The notes under the pieces: model-generated
The model's database searches: none
Told to the model about the DNA's origin: nothing
The model's input: the letters and a program-made list of their open reading frames with translations, nothing else
Program-made: the position numbers and the translations under genes
Assembly: GCA_016937175.1 (NCBI GenBank)
Contig: JAFGWL010000071.1
Location: 1-46,521, forward strand
Length of the DNA: 46,521 nt
Direction of reading: 5' to 3'
Source of the DNA: Candidatus Mcinerneyibacteriota bacterium
GTDB lineage: Bacteria > Macinerneyibacteriota > Macinerneyibacteria > Macinerneyibacteriales > DSCS01
Shown here: in pieces, positions 35,255 to 46,521 of the stretch
Layout of the letters: each line of letters opens with the position of its first letter
Position numbering within the stretch: the first letter of the stretch is position 1

Positions 35255-38342
<3,088 letters not shown>

Positions 38343-38343
38343 C

Positions 38344-40041
38344 ATGCTGCGATCAGTATTATTCTTTTCAATGTTTGTTCTTTTTACGGTTTTTGTGGAA
38401 GGAGAGACTGTCACAACGAAGTTTTCAGAAATCCTTTCAGGGGAAGCGGGTAGAAATTTTAAAGCTTTACAGAAACAGGAGATACCTCCCTACTATATTT
38501 CCTATCGTGTGGAAGACGAGAGGAGTGTGACGCTCAGTGCGGAATTGGGAGCCGTCTCTTCCCGCGACGAAGAGAGAAACCGTATCCTCACGGTCATGGT
38601 CCGTGTAGGGTCTCCTGAACGTGACAATTTCCATCCCCTTCGGGAAGATGTGAGTGTCTATTACACGTCTCAGGGGGAAGAGTCCCGTCTCCCTTATGAG
38701 GATGACCCGGAAGCCGTCGCCCATGTGGTCCGCCTGGCTACGGAAAAGGCCTATCGGAAAGCTCTTATGAGATTTTCCAAAGTCAGGGCGAACCTTGAAG
38801 TGAAAGTCGCCGAAGAGGACTCCTCTCCCGATTATACCATGCCCTCCCCCTCGGTTTCGGCGACTTCAGATCATGCGGAAGCCCCACGTCCTTTTCTCTC
38901 TTCCTGGGAAGAGCCTCTCAAGGATTGGAGCGCTCTTTTTCTGAGAGATCCCCGATGCTTCAGCGGGACAGCTGAGATCCAGCTGGTGGACACTGAAAAG
39001 ACGTTTGTAGATACACAAGGGGCTGCCATCGTCCAGTATTCCAGCCGGGCACGTCTCTCCTTTGAAGCTATGACCAAAGCCGATGACGGGATGGTCATCC
39101 CGGTCTTTCTCTCTTTTGAAGGGAAATCGGTGGATGATTTTCCGTCCCGGGAGCTTGTCTATCGGGAGGTGGAGAAGAGAGCCGCTCTTATGGAAGCTTT
39201 GAGAAATGCGCCTCTGGTGGAACCCTATTCAGGCCCGGCGATACTATCCGGAGAGGCCGCGGGAGTCTTCTTCCATGAGATCTTCGGACACCGCCTCGAA
39301 GGACAGCGGATGAAGGAGGTTACAGACAGTCAGACATTTAAAGACAAGATCGGAGATCAGGTGCTTCCCCGCTCTTTCAGCGTCACTTTCGACCCTGTCC
39401 GGACCCGCTTTGAGGGGAAGTTCCTGTGGGGAGGCTATGCTTTTGATGATGAGGGCGTTCCTGCACAGAGAGTCGATGTGGTGGAAAAGGGAATACTGAA
39501 GGATTTCCTCATGTCGCGTACACCCCTTGAGGGACATCCGTCTTCCAACGGGCACGGAAGGGCCCAGGCCGGGCGCCTTCCTGTGGCACGGCAATCGAAC
39601 ATGTTCGTATCAGTGGAAGATCCTCTCACCAAAGAGGCTCTTCGCCGGCGCTTGATCCTGGAGCTTAAAGAACAGGGGAAGTCTTTCGGATATCGTATTG
39701 AAGCGGTGCAGGGAGGATTCACGCTGACCAAGCGCTTCTCCCCCAACGCCTTCAATGTCAATCCTTTTATCGTCTATCGTGTCTACACCGACGGCCGTCC
39801 TGACGAACTGGTCCGAGGCGTCGACCTTATCGGGACTCCATTGTCCATGTTCTCCCATATTGAAGCCGGTGGAGGAGAGTACGGGGTCTTCAGCGGTTTC
39901 TGCGGAGCAGAATCAGGCGCTGTGCCTGTGGCGGCTGTGGCTCCGGAACTCTTTGTCTCACAGGTGGAATTGCAGAAAAAAGGAATTTCGCAAAACAGGC
40001 CCCCGCTTCTTGAGCGCCCGGACCGGAGGGAGGAGCCATGA
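38344..40041 (+). CDS. Exported TldD-like metalloprotease with HExxxH
   Basis: The 565-residue protein belongs to the TldD/PmbA family of metallopeptidases but begins with a signal peptide (MLRSVLFFSMFVLFTVFVEG), unlike cytosolic TldD. An N-terminal exported region of about 270 residues precedes the TldD core. The core contains GPAILSGEAAGVFFHEIFGH, with the active-site H311-E312 and H316, then GRAQAGRLPVARQSNMFVSV and EAGGGEYGVFSGFCGAESGAV. Cytosolic TldD/TldE pairs trim linear peptides inside a closed chamber, and family relatives with signal peptides are less studied. GGGAGG precedes the start, and the stop overlaps the next gene by 4 nt. Confidence 0.88.
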   Translation: MLRSVLFFSMFVLFTVFVEGETVTTKFSEILSGEAGRNFKALQKQEIPPYYISYRVEDERSVTLSAELGAVSSRDEERNRILTVMVRVGSPERDNFHPLREDVSVYYTSQGEESRLPYEDDPEAVAHVVRLATEKAYRKALMRFSKVRANLEVKVAEEDSSPDYTMPSPSVSATSDHAEAPRPFLSSWEEPLKDWSALFLRDPRCFSGTAEIQLVDTEKTFVDTQGAAIVQYSSRARLSFEAMTKADDGMVIPVFLSFEGKSVDDFPSRELVYREVEKRAALMEALRNAPLVEPYSGPAILSGEAAGVFFHEIFGHRLEGQRMKEVTDSQTFKDKIGDQVLPRSFSVTFDPVRTRFEGKFLWGGYAFDDEGVPAQRVDVVEKGILKDFLMSRTPLEGHPSSNGHGRAQAGRLPVARQSNMFVSVEDPLTKEALRRRLILELKEQGKSFGYRIEAVQGGFTLTKRFSPNAFNVNPFIVYRVYTDGRPDELVRGVDLIGTPLSMFSHIEAGGGEYGVFSGFCGAESGAVPVAAVAPELFVSQVELQKKGISQNRPPLLERPDRREEP

Positions 40042-41771
40042 AAAAGCTTACAGCCCTGTTAAGCCTTCTCACAGTCCTCATTCTTTCTGCCTCGGGAGAG
40101 TCTTCCTATGACCCTCTTCTTCACCGGGTGCTCCGGGAAGAACTCTTCTATCAGAAGAATCATCTTTCTCTGGAGGGACGCCCCGGGCCCTTTTACCTTT
40201 CAGCGGCATTAACCGATATCCGTTTCAGGAGAGTCATTGCTGTCAGGGGAGCTATCATCCAGAAACGTGACGTCCCCTACAGGGGAATCATGGGACGTCT
40301 CATGGTAGGGGACTATGAGCTGAACAACGAAAACTTCCTGACCTATAACAATATGTTTGGTGAAATAGGCCGGTTCACGGGGACAGTCCAGGAGAATGAC
40401 CCGCTGGCGATCCAACGCTCTCTGTGGCTCATGGCCGATACCTTGTATAAAGAGGCTGTGGTCCGTCTGGAGGACAAAAAGAGTATTATGAAAGAGTGCG
40501 GGATGACCGTTGATGAGACCGGCCCCGACTTTATCCCCGCCGGAGAGATCCATTATTCACGGACCCGCCGGCAAGCCCTTCCTTCCATGGCCCTCCTTGA
40601 GGAGACGGCCAAAGTCATCTCGAAGGAGGTGGGGTCAGAAAAACGCATAAAAGATTCTCAAACAGATATTTACGGATGGGAGACACTGATCTCTTATGTG
40701 AATACAGAGGGATCCATGCAAGTCTTTCCCTTATCGGGGATCACAGTGACCCTGACCGGCTACGGGCTCACACAGGAAGGCGAACAGGAAGGGATGCGCT
40801 TCAGGGCCGTCTTTCCTGCAGGGGGGGAGTTCCCTTCCCGGGCTGAATGGATAAAACAAGCCCGGGAATTCCGGAATGCCCTTCTTAGACAGATAGACGC
40901 ATCTCCCTATGACGACTATTATGAGGGGCCGGTGTTGTTCAGTGGCGAAGCCGTGGGGCAGCTGTTTGCGTCAGCTCTTTTCGGAGAAAAGGATCCCCTC
41001 ATCGACAGAAAACAGCCCCTTTACTACGACAGACGGATCGCCGATGCCGACCCCGACCGCAACACCGGGCTGATGTCCCGCCGCCGGGGACGTCTGGTAG
41101 TCTCCCCGCTGCTGACAGTGAAAGCCGTATCGGGAAAAGAGGCCTGGGACGGTATCCCGCTTGTGGGCTATTTCCCATGCAGTGCAGAGGGTGTCCCTGT
41201 CAAAGAAAAGACACTGATCTCCCGGGGAATCCTTAAAGAGATGCTCTCCAGCAGGACTCCTGCGCGCAAAGGGGATGAAGCAGGCTGGCATAAAAGATGG
41301 GTCAATCCCTGGCGCATTGACGATGCTCCCGGGGTTGTGGCGGTTTTCCCCGAACAAAGCCTGACAAAAGAGGCGTTGCATGAAAAACTGAGCCGTGAGG
41401 CGGAAAAAAACGGCTATGATTACTATATCTCCATCTCTTCCCTTTCAGAGCCGGGATTTCTCGACTCTTTGACAGATCAATCCTGGGAAGAGCCCGGAGC
41501 GCTTCTCCCCCGCTGTGTTGAAAAAGTCTACCCCGACGGGCGGAGGGAGCCTATCCGTAATATAGAAGCTCTATTCTTTTCTCCCCGAACCCTGAAGCAT
41601 CTTCTGGGGGTGGCAGCACCGCTTAAGGCACGCAATCTGGTCTATAAACGAAATCAGACGGACATCTATGCTTCTTTTATCGTTCCTTCCGCTGTAGCGG
41701 TGGAAGAGATGGCCATCACGGGGAAACCTCAGGACGGCTTCTCTTATGAAGAGTATCTTCACGTGGATTAG
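40038..41771 (+). CDS. Exported TldE-like partner lacking the zinc motif
   Basis: The 577-residue protein has a signal peptide (KKLTALLSLLTVLILSASGE). Its layout parallels the preceding protein: an N-terminal region, then EGPVLFSGEAVGQLFASALFGE where the first gene has its HExxxH. Here no His-Glu is present, so the zinc site is missing. Other conserved stretches are KTLISRGILKEMLSSRTPAR and VEKVYPDGRREPIRNIEALF. In E. coli, TldD carries the zinc and TldE does not, and the two work as a heterodimer. This pair seems to be the exported counterpart. The start has GGGAGGAG upstream and overlaps the first gene, and the end overlaps the next by 26 nt. Confidence 0.82.
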   Translation: MKKLTALLSLLTVLILSASGESSYDPLLHRVLREELFYQKNHLSLEGRPGPFYLSAALTDIRFRRVIAVRGAIIQKRDVPYRGIMGRLMVGDYELNNENFLTYNNMFGEIGRFTGTVQENDPLAIQRSLWLMADTLYKEAVVRLEDKKSIMKECGMTVDETGPDFIPAGEIHYSRTRRQALPSMALLEETAKVISKEVGSEKRIKDSQTDIYGWETLISYVNTEGSMQVFPLSGITVTLTGYGLTQEGEQEGMRFRAVFPAGGEFPSRAEWIKQAREFRNALLRQIDASPYDDYYEGPVLFSGEAVGQLFASALFGEKDPLIDRKQPLYYDRRIADADPDRNTGLMSRRRGRLVVSPLLTVKAVSGKEAWDGIPLVGYFPCSAEGVPVKEKTLISRGILKEMLSSRTPARKGDEAGWHKRWVNPWRIDDAPGVVAVFPEQSLTKEALHEKLSREAEKNGYDYYISISSLSEPGFLDSLTDQSWEEPGALLPRCVEKVYPDGRREPIRNIEALFFSPRTLKHLLGVAAPLKARNLVYKRNQTDIYASFIVPSAVAVEEMAITGKPQDGFSYEEYLHVD

Positions 41772-42648
41772 GCTCTTTGTGCAGAAGGGGCCGCTTTTCG
41801 GGATTATGGCGGTCCTTTTCCTAACGGGGTGTTCTTTCCCCGGTACCGGCAGACGCCTTTATCCCGATTGTTTCGATACGATACGTGTCTCGCGGCTTAC
41901 AGAGCTTTCGGGGATGGCCTTGTCAGCCTGTTTTCCCGGTGTCATCTGGGGTATCAATGATTCCGGCCACCTCCCGGAGCTCTTTGCCATGGATCGGGAG
42001 GGAAATCCCGCGAAGCCGTTCAGTATTAAACTATCCGGAAGAAAAAACCGGGACTGGGAAGATATGGCTTCCGACGGGAAGGGACGCCTTTTCATAGCCG
42101 ATACGGGAAACAACCTGAACAGGAGGCGGGACCTCGGGATACTTATCATCGATGAACATGAGCTTGATGCCGGGACAAGGACGGTTTCCTCACATATCAT
42201 CCCGCTGGAATATCCCGGGCAAAGAGAGTTCCCTCCGCCTTTAAAAAAGCGTAATTTCGATTGTGAGGCCCTCTGCTATATCAGGGGGACCCTTTGTCTT
42301 TTTACAAAAAATCGAGGAAACAAGGAGACGGACCTCTATACCCTTGACGAAGAGAATGAATTTTCGGGCCCGTTGGCCTACAGAGAAAGTTTTCCTGTTG
42401 AGGGGCTTGTTACTGGGGCTGATTTCCACCCCGCCGGTTTTTTGGCCCTGCTGACTTACAGCGAGATCCTGATCTTCGATGTATCAGAAAAAATCACTCT
42501 TCAAAAACCGGTAAAGCGCTTCTTCCTGGATACCCTTCAGGTAAAACAGTGTGAAAGCATTCTCTTTATCCGGAAAGGGCTTCTGGTTTCCAACGAACAG
42601 GGAGACCTCTATTTCTTTTCTTTTGAGCAACTGGGGCTCTCTCTCTGA
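41746..42648 (+). CDS. Lipoprotein, probable beta-propeller, coupled to the TldD-like pair
   Basis: The 300-residue protein has a long N-terminal hydrophobic leader ending in lipobox LTGC (Cys at about residue 29). A body with propeller-like features follows: ELSGMALSACFPGVIWGIND, RKNRDWEDMASDGKGRLFIA and LVTGADFHPAGFLALLTYSE. It resembles lipid-anchored, SdiA-regulated-like or esterase-like propellers, but I cannot name a family with confidence. The start ATG lies 26 nt inside the TldE-like gene, so translation is coupled, suggesting a shared role on the envelope. It is the last gene of the 12-gene run; I see no hairpin terminator after it. Confidence 0.75.
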   Translation: MKSIFTWIRLFVQKGPLFGIMAVLFLTGCSFPGTGRRLYPDCFDTIRVSRLTELSGMALSACFPGVIWGINDSGHLPELFAMDREGNPAKPFSIKLSGRKNRDWEDMASDGKGRLFIADTGNNLNRRRDLGILIIDEHELDAGTRTVSSHIIPLEYPGQREFPPPLKKRNFDCEALCYIRGTLCLFTKNRGNKETDLYTLDEENEFSGPLAYRESFPVEGLVTGADFHPAGFLALLTYSEILIFDVSEKITLQKPVKRFFLDTLQVKQCESILFIRKGLLVSNEQGDLYFFSFEQLGLSL

Positions 42649-42662
42649 ACGCTTTTAAAACG

Positions 42663-42691
42663 TTGACACCGCAGGCTTCTTGCCATAAGAT
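42663..42691 (+). promoter_or_regulatory. Promoter of rnz
   Basis: TTGACA (42663-42668) and TAAGAT (42686-42691) are 17 bp apart, with a leader of about 28 nt and AAAGGAG before the ATG at 42727. It lies in the short gap after the 12-gene run. Confidence 0.65.
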
Positions 42692-44776: not shown

Positions 44777-46521
44777 ATGAAACGTTTTTCAGCCCTGAGC
44801 CTTCTTGTGCTCCTGGCGGCGGGACTGCTTTCTGCTGTCCCTGTGGATCCCAGGTTAAAAGAGAAACTGGAAAATGAGGGGAAACCCGTTCCCCGTGAAC
44901 CGGAACTGCCCACAAAACAGGTCTATTGGGATGCGGCTTTACAGAGCCATGTCAAAAGGACTATGGGCCAGGATATCAAAAGAGTCAACACTACCGGAAC
45001 ACAGAAAGTGCTGGTCCTCATGGTGGACTTCAGCGACAAGACCCACAGCAAGACCAAAGCTCAGTTCGACGAGCTGCTCTTCAGTGACGATACTTACGCC
45101 ACGGGGAGCTTTCGCGACTATTACCAGGATATCTCCCACGGGACATTCAACCTGGAAGGCCCGGTGGCCATGGACTGGGTGCGCATCACGGTGAACAATT
45201 ATTCCTATTATACTTATAACGGTTACGGGACAGACGGGCCTTATCCCCATAATGCCCAGGGCCTGGTCAAGGACCTTGTGGATGCTGTGGATGCTACCAT
45301 AGATTTTTCCCAGTATGATCAGGACGGAGACGGGTTTGTGGACCATCTCATCGTGATCCATGCAGGGAAAGGGGCTGAAGCCACCGGCTCGGTCAATGAT
45401 ATCTGGTCCCATCAATGGTCCACTTATGAGTGGGATGATGCCAACGGCAACGGGACCGTGGACTCCGGAGAAGCCTACTATCTCGAGCGCGACGGGGTGA
45501 AGATCTACGAGTATTGTATCCAGCCGGAAGTGGACTGGAGTAATGCTCTTGTGGGTATCGGAGTCTTCGCCCATGAATTCGGCCATATGCTTGGGCTTCC
45601 CGACCTGTATGATACCGATTATTCCTCTGAAGGGACCGGGATCTATTGTCTGATGAGCGGCGGCTCCTGGGGCGGAGGAGGCACAAAACCCATCTTCATG
45701 TCCGCCTGGTGCCGATATCAATTGGGCTGGGTGAACCCCATCGAGATCACTGAAAGCAATACCGGGACCTACACCATCCCTCAGGTCGCTGATAATGCCG
45801 ACACCACGGTCATCAAGATCTGGAAAGAGGGCATTTACACCGGGAATGAATACTTCCTCGTGGAGAACCGTTACAAAACCGGATGGGATATGTCGCTCCC
45901 CTCTTCAGGCCTTGCCATCTGGCATGTGGACGAATCCATGTCGGGGAATACCAACGAGTCCCATTACCTGGTGGCTTTGGAGCAGGCTGACGGCGATTTT
46001 GACCTGGAAAACGGAAATAGTTCCGACACCGGAGATCTTTACCCGGGTATCGACAGTGTCCGGTCCTTTACCGACCTGACCACACCCTCAAGCCGAAATT
46101 ATGCAGGCCAGTCCACAGATGTAAGCATCCGGAACATCTCTGATGCCGGGGCCTCCATGACGGCTTCATTCTTCCTCTCGGGAGAGCTGGCCGCTTTTGA
46201 CTTTATCACTCCGGACGACGACTCCACTTATGCCCCCGGAGCAGATATCGCCTTTTCCTGGCAGTCAGCCGGAGAAGACGGCACAGTGACCTATTACCTG
46301 GAACGCTCTGAGACATCCGGTTTCGATTCCGTGACTACCCTGGCCACCACGACAGGCCTCTCCTTCACACCTGTGGCTCCTGCTGTGGGGACCTATTATT
46401 ATCGGGTGAGAGCCAACAAAGACGGGATCGACAAGTACTCCACGAACTCTCTGACGTTGTATTCATCGACGGTCCAGACGGTGGATAGTTTTGACCCTGT
46501 AACGGCGGGGAATTCAACAGA
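44777..46521 (+). CDS. Secreted M6 family metalloprotease, 3' end cut by the window
   Basis: The reading frame is open from ATG 44777 to the last base of the window (581 codons), so the gene is truncated here by the window edge. CGGAGG precedes the start. The protein has a signal peptide (KRFSALSLLVLLAAGLLSAV). The M6 (immune inhibitor A-like) catalytic domain has zinc motif HEFGH (residues 266-270, in AHEFGHMLGLPDLYD), and an acidic calcium-type loop DQDGDGFVDH. After about residue 470 a fibronectin III-like domain begins (FITPDDDSTYAPGADIAFSW, then YYLERSETSGFDS and YYYRVRANKDG). It is a likely extracellular peptidase. The missing C-terminus could hold a secretion-system sorting domain. Confidence 0.9.
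   Translation, partial: MKRFSALSLLVLLAAGLLSAVPVDPRLKEKLENEGKPVPREPELPTKQVYWDAALQSHVKRTMGQDIKRVNTTGTQKVLVLMVDFSDKTHSKTKAQFDELLFSDDTYATGSFRDYYQDISHGTFNLEGPVAMDWVRITVNNYSYYTYNGYGTDGPYPHNAQGLVKDLVDAVDATIDFSQYDQDGDGFVDHLIVIHAGKGAEATGSVNDIWSHQWSTYEWDDANGNGTVDSGEAYYLERDGVKIYEYCIQPEVDWSNALVGIGVFAHEFGHMLGLPDLYDTDYSSEGTGIYCLMSGGSWGGGGTKPIFMSAWCRYQLGWVNPIEITESNTGTYTIPQVADNADTTVIKIWKEGIYTGNEYFLVENRYKTGWDMSLPSSGLAIWHVDESMSGNTNESHYLVALEQADGDFDLENGNSSDTGDLYPGIDSVRSFTDLTTPSSRNYAGQSTDVSIRNISDAGASMTASFFLSGELAAFDFITPDDDSTYAPGADIAFSWQSAGEDGTVTYYLERSETSGFDSVTTLATTTGLSFTPVAPAVGTYYYRVRANKDGIDKYSTNSLTLYSSTVQTVDSFDPVTAGNST

Follow-up and report, generated by a model that had tools for sequence, protein, structure and literature searches.

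An exported TldD-like protein and its catalytically dead partner, a pair of separate origin from cytosolic TldD/TldE

Has the active/inactive TldD/TldE heterodimer, which is cytosolic in Escherichia coli, been relocated to the cell envelope together with a lipid-anchored partner? This question is raised by three consecutive ORFs on the forward strand of a 46,521-nucleotide stretch of DNA (the window), which an initial annotation read as a three-gene module. The ORFs lie where it placed them: P1 (38344-40041, 565 aa), P2 (40038-41771, 577 aa), which overlaps P1 by 4 nt, and P3 (41746-42648, 300 aa).

We determined how far P1 and P2 belong to the TldD family. P1 contains the motif HEIFGH at residues 311-316 (39274-39291). 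Its Cys520 (39901-39903) aligns with Cys454 of E. coli TldD, which lies in a CGKEG stretch and binds the metal in the crystal (PMC5810440), and is the putative third metal ligand of P1. H311, E312, H316 and C520, the HExxxH and downstream Cys of an M103-type site, were invariant in 80/80 P1 relatives. These came from the best 80 P1 loci of a longer list, obtained by scanning GTDB genomes and reading the ORFs around each locus. In an ungapped GP(x)SGEA frame common to P1 and P2, residues 311-316 of P2 (40968-40985) read ASALFG. As initially described, P2 has no HExxxH; it lacks every metal ligand, and HExxxH was kept by none of the P2s of the best 80 P1 loci.

The C-terminal domain PF19289 (PmbA_TldD_3rd, cut-off 22 bits) was matched by P1 with 92 bits (E=4e-26) and more weakly by P2 with 28 bits (E=1.4e-6). 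It was also matched by 16 of 16 P2 relatives. By this domain, P1 and P2 both belong to the PmbA/TldD superfamily. The two proteins share 25% identity, and a phmmer search of the PDB with P1 returned E. coli TldD (5nj5, E=2e-11). Neither protein reached the TldD/TldE equivalog cut-offs of NCBIfam. Among the N-terminal and central Pfam domains, PF01523 was not reported at E<=1 and PF19290 remained below its own cut-off. Considering that the predicted structure of a natural P1-P2 fusion, described below, matches TldD over about 550 columns, these domains have diverged and are not absent. P1 is indeed 81-99 aa longer than the TldDs of its own genome (466-484 aa). The additional residues had been assigned to the N-terminus, which is true of only part of them: the HExxxH of P1 is shifted inward by only 56-62 residues, of which the signal peptide accounts for about 20, so some of the added residues must follow the active site.

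Both proteins begin with predicted signal peptides of about 20 residues, MLRSVLFFSMFVLFTVFVEG in P1 (38344-38403, cleavage point placed by eye) and MKKLTALLSLLTVLILSASG in P2 (40038-40097). Signal peptides were judged by maximal hydropathy near the N-terminus and by eye. By hydropathy, an N-terminal hydrophobic segment was present in 40/41 P1 and 40/41 P2 relatives, compared to 1/24 cytosolic TldDs and 0/14 TldEs. Strong ribosome-binding sites precede both starts (GGAGG at 38335-38339 for P1 and GGAGGGAGGAG at 40025-40035 for P2), which indicates that the starts are not mis-called. Where P1 and P2 are naturally fused, only 1 of 21 second halves has a hydrophobic N-terminal segment, as expected if one signal peptide exports the joined pair. 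The ribosome-binding sites, the conservation of the segments and their loss in second halves together rule out mis-called starts, and the export signals first noted for P1 and P2 are upheld.

The genome from which the window derives encodes three Omp85 proteins, with one further sub-threshold match, and one LptD-like protein, so that an outer membrane should be present. We infer that P1 and P2 are periplasmic (or surface) proteins. A different arrangement occurs in genome G047, where an ordinary cytosolic-clade TldD (L032:919-2505) begins with a signal of the twin-arginine-like type (SRVTRREFMRNCAAGTAGAAVLPYVVKA) and the TldE-like gene beside it encodes none. This is possibly a separate export route, with a folded pair passing through Tat.

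P1 is encoded with an inactive paralogous partner well beyond the window. Among the best 80 P1 loci, which are spread over Bacteroidota, Acidobacteriota, Kapabacteria and other groups, an inactive P2 immediately follows P1 in 48, and in 22 a single ORF of about 1,100 residues encodes both proteins as a fusion. Eight have no P2 in the surrounding stretch, and the remaining two stop at a contig edge. When the eight genomes with an unlinked P1 were searched in full, each proved to encode exactly one P2 at another place. Many of the genomes surveyed are metagenome assemblies. Two phyla were also sampled evenly. Ten of 118 Bacteroidota genomes were positive, nine with both subunits and one with a P1 running into the contig end. 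Full-length matches were found in 13 of 99 Acidobacteriota genomes, 12 with active and inactive proteins and one with a "single" type (see below). The distance matrices of P1 and P2 were correlated (r=0.88, a value reached by none of 2000 permutations), although some of this agreement stems from the history that the species have in common. On the tree, the fused state appeared or disappeared at least six times. The partnership of P1 and P2 is thus near-obligate and often fused across several bacterial phyla. One gut bacterium, Butyricimonas sp. Marseille-P3923 (G060), encodes five exported active/inactive pairs, one of them fused.

For the third gene, and only for it, the same survey revealed no conserved co-occurrence. 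P3 has an LTGC lipobox and was modeled by AF2 as a beta-propeller (pLDDT 77.9), which agrees with its first description as a propeller-like lipoprotein. The top Foldseek match was YjiK (PDB 3qqz). P3 thus resembles YjiK/SdiA-regulated-type beta-propellers in its predicted fold, but the match is weak and at fold level only (TM 0.52-0.62), and no Pfam family was reached. The reported 26-nt overlap with P2 holds if P3 starts at the ATG at 41746, but not if it starts at the GTG at 41779, which lies 7 nt after the P2 stop and also yields a signal peptide with a lipobox. The ATG lies in coding sequence shared with a congener, where TTATGAAGAGTATCT is found inside P2 and no P3 is present.

This congener (DSCS01000026.1, SpSt-1200) has the same gene order as the window, rnr-tgt-P1-P2-rnz-epmA-M6, without P3. 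A promoter-like element precedes rnz in both (TTGACA-17-TAAGAT, 42663-42691 on the forward strand of the window); it follows P2 at once in the congener, while P3 lies between P2 and the element in the window. P3 was not found anywhere in the congener genome, and no P3 homologue was present in the best 80 P1 loci. Homologues elsewhere are in unrelated loci and are not linked to TldD-like genes. We conclude that P3 is a neighbor outside the module, and that it was either inserted in the window lineage or lost in the congener. No promoter was called between P2 and the abutting P3, and a lipoprotein with a predicted propeller fold might tether or feed the peptidase pair. Given its absence from the syntenic site and from the P1 loci, we find such a three-gene system very hard to credit.

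Two further observations concern this region. The congener is labeled "Bacillota", which looks doubtful because it is a poor fit with the Omp85 and LptD homologues of the window genome. Downstream of epmA, an exported M6-type metallopeptidase (immune inhibitor A family; 44777-46519) runs off the window end, in the same order as in the congener.

We next considered how P1 and P2 might be arranged. A structure of the natural fusion L098 (1,084 residues), built from an alignment of 22 fusions, was predicted with a pLDDT of 86.5 and a pTM of 0.82. Below E=0.001, the model matched only TldD, TldE and PmbA chains in the PDB. L098 is predicted to consist of two halves, each with the TldD fold, and we read the high pTM over the whole chain as a confident placement of the halves relative to each other. 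By analogy with E. coli TldD/E, P1 and P2 probably form a closed two-subunit shell around an internal chamber. The initial proposal of an active and an inactive protein in one complex is supported by this model together with the co-occurrence, the repeated natural fusion and the mirrored trees.

We consider it likely that the two proteins make up one exported, metal-dependent peptidase of the TldD fold, with P1 as catalytic and P2 as dead subunit, which acts in the periplasm (or on the surface) of an outer-membrane bacterium. The metal would be held by His311, His316 and Cys520 of P1, with Glu312 as the base, and P2 would provide the other half of the shell. E. coli TldD/E is the precedent for both the metal site and the chamber (PMC5810440). 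If the chamber admits unfolded peptide ends only, with the chemistry on the P1 side, the likely job would be the disposal or trimming of unfolded envelope peptides with little sequence preference. A Cys metal ligand could be open to oxidation in the periplasm, which counts against this reading of P1.

Other roles can be weighed against the gene neighborhoods. Microcin B17 and other RiPPs are matured by TldD/E, which is often encoded away from their gene clusters (PMC5810440, PMC10885120). P1/P2 might likewise serve the maturation of an exported peptide, as a protease dedicated to cutting off its leader segments. In the best 80 P1 loci, the pair has no biosynthetic genes nearby and no recurrent neighbor that would point to a substrate, the commonest neighbor cluster occurring in 7 of the 80, and the pair is widely spread over unrelated phyla, which makes this role improbable. 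The superfamily also includes N-deacetylases, as indicated by the title of Vobruba 2022, cited in PMC10885120, and the pair might be an exported amidase or deacetylase whose target is a non-peptide amide of the envelope. This too seems unlikely, considering that all 80 P1s keep the peptidase ligand set of HExxxH and Cys and that no linked sugar or cell-wall genes recur in their loci. Of the possible roles, general disposal of unfolded peptides is the most compatible with the wide spread and the lack of conserved neighbors.

Are P1 and P2 then the TldD and TldE of the cytosol, moved out together through the acquisition of signal peptides? The common fold, the same division into active and inactive subunits and the fact that the best PDB alignment of P1 is to TldD would fit such a relocation. 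A phylogenetic analysis of 85 proteins argues against it. The tree separated exported (P1, P2 and singles) from cytosolic proteins (TldD and TldE) with 100% support, and P1, P2 and TldE each formed one group. The split also received 100% support with the C-terminal domain alone without catalytic columns, and when the long branches and the lineage of the window were excluded. P2 branches with the exported active proteins, and its grouping with TldE was rejected under the models used, both with the full alignment (p-AU 5.8e-47) and with the C-terminal domain alone after removal of catalytic columns (p-AU 0.006). We therefore regard relocation of the cytosolic heterodimer, as suggested in the initial annotation, as highly improbable: the inactive subunit arose inside the exported family.

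Since P2 does not derive from the TldE lineage, the active/inactive arrangement arose at least twice. P1, the singles and TldD all keep the site, so the simplest account, irrespective of the position of the root, is that the metal site was lost at least twice. P2 of the window is on a long branch, which makes its exact place among the P2s uncertain, but not its membership. The window genome (1.9 Mb) also encodes three cytosolic TldD/TldE pairs of its own (contigs C3, C6 and C34; L001-L005), an unusually large set for a genome of this size. The exported pair is thus additional to them.

We found no description of the exported pair in the open-access literature and no dedicated family model, and provisionally consider it previously undescribed. 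We give about even chances to a broader reading, in which P1/P2 would be a widespread exported chambered peptidase of outer-membrane bacteria, a convergent heterodimer for general unfolded-peptide disposal in the envelope, with the active/pseudo-enzyme division re-invented and repeatedly fused. TldE is the usual example of an inactive paralogue that is retained because a protease chamber needs completing. A second independent origin in another compartment shows that the dead-subunit arrangement is a repeatable solution, and nature thus offers two cases that can be compared to learn what is required of a dead subunit. The pair is also a pointer to an envelope peptidase that has gone unrecognised in bacteria of gut and soil, with five copies in the one Butyricimonas genome. 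For structure determination and assay, the natural fusions supply it ready-made as a single chain.

The closest relatives of the pair are exported "single" TldD-like proteins (L008-L014). Like P1, they belong to the exported clade and have an intact metal site, and most have a signal peptide. They form a sister group with mostly HEAxGH-type sites, and whole-genome searches found no P2-like inactive partner in 7 of 7 of their genomes. The singles are presumably homodimers or monomers and provide a natural control against which the contribution of the dead subunit can be judged. Among characterized systems, P1/P2 most resembles E. coli TldD/TldE (PmbA; MEROPS M103; PDB 5nj5, 5njf). The two share the fold, one subunit with an HExxxH and a remote Cys, a paralogous subunit in which all ligands are lost, and a two-subunit arrangement, which is predicted for P1/P2. 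Unlike the cytosolic E. coli proteins, P1 and P2 both have predicted signal peptides, are about 100 aa longer and have N-terminal domains that Pfam does not recognise. Their inactive subunit is of separate origin, and the two subunits are often joined in one fused chain.
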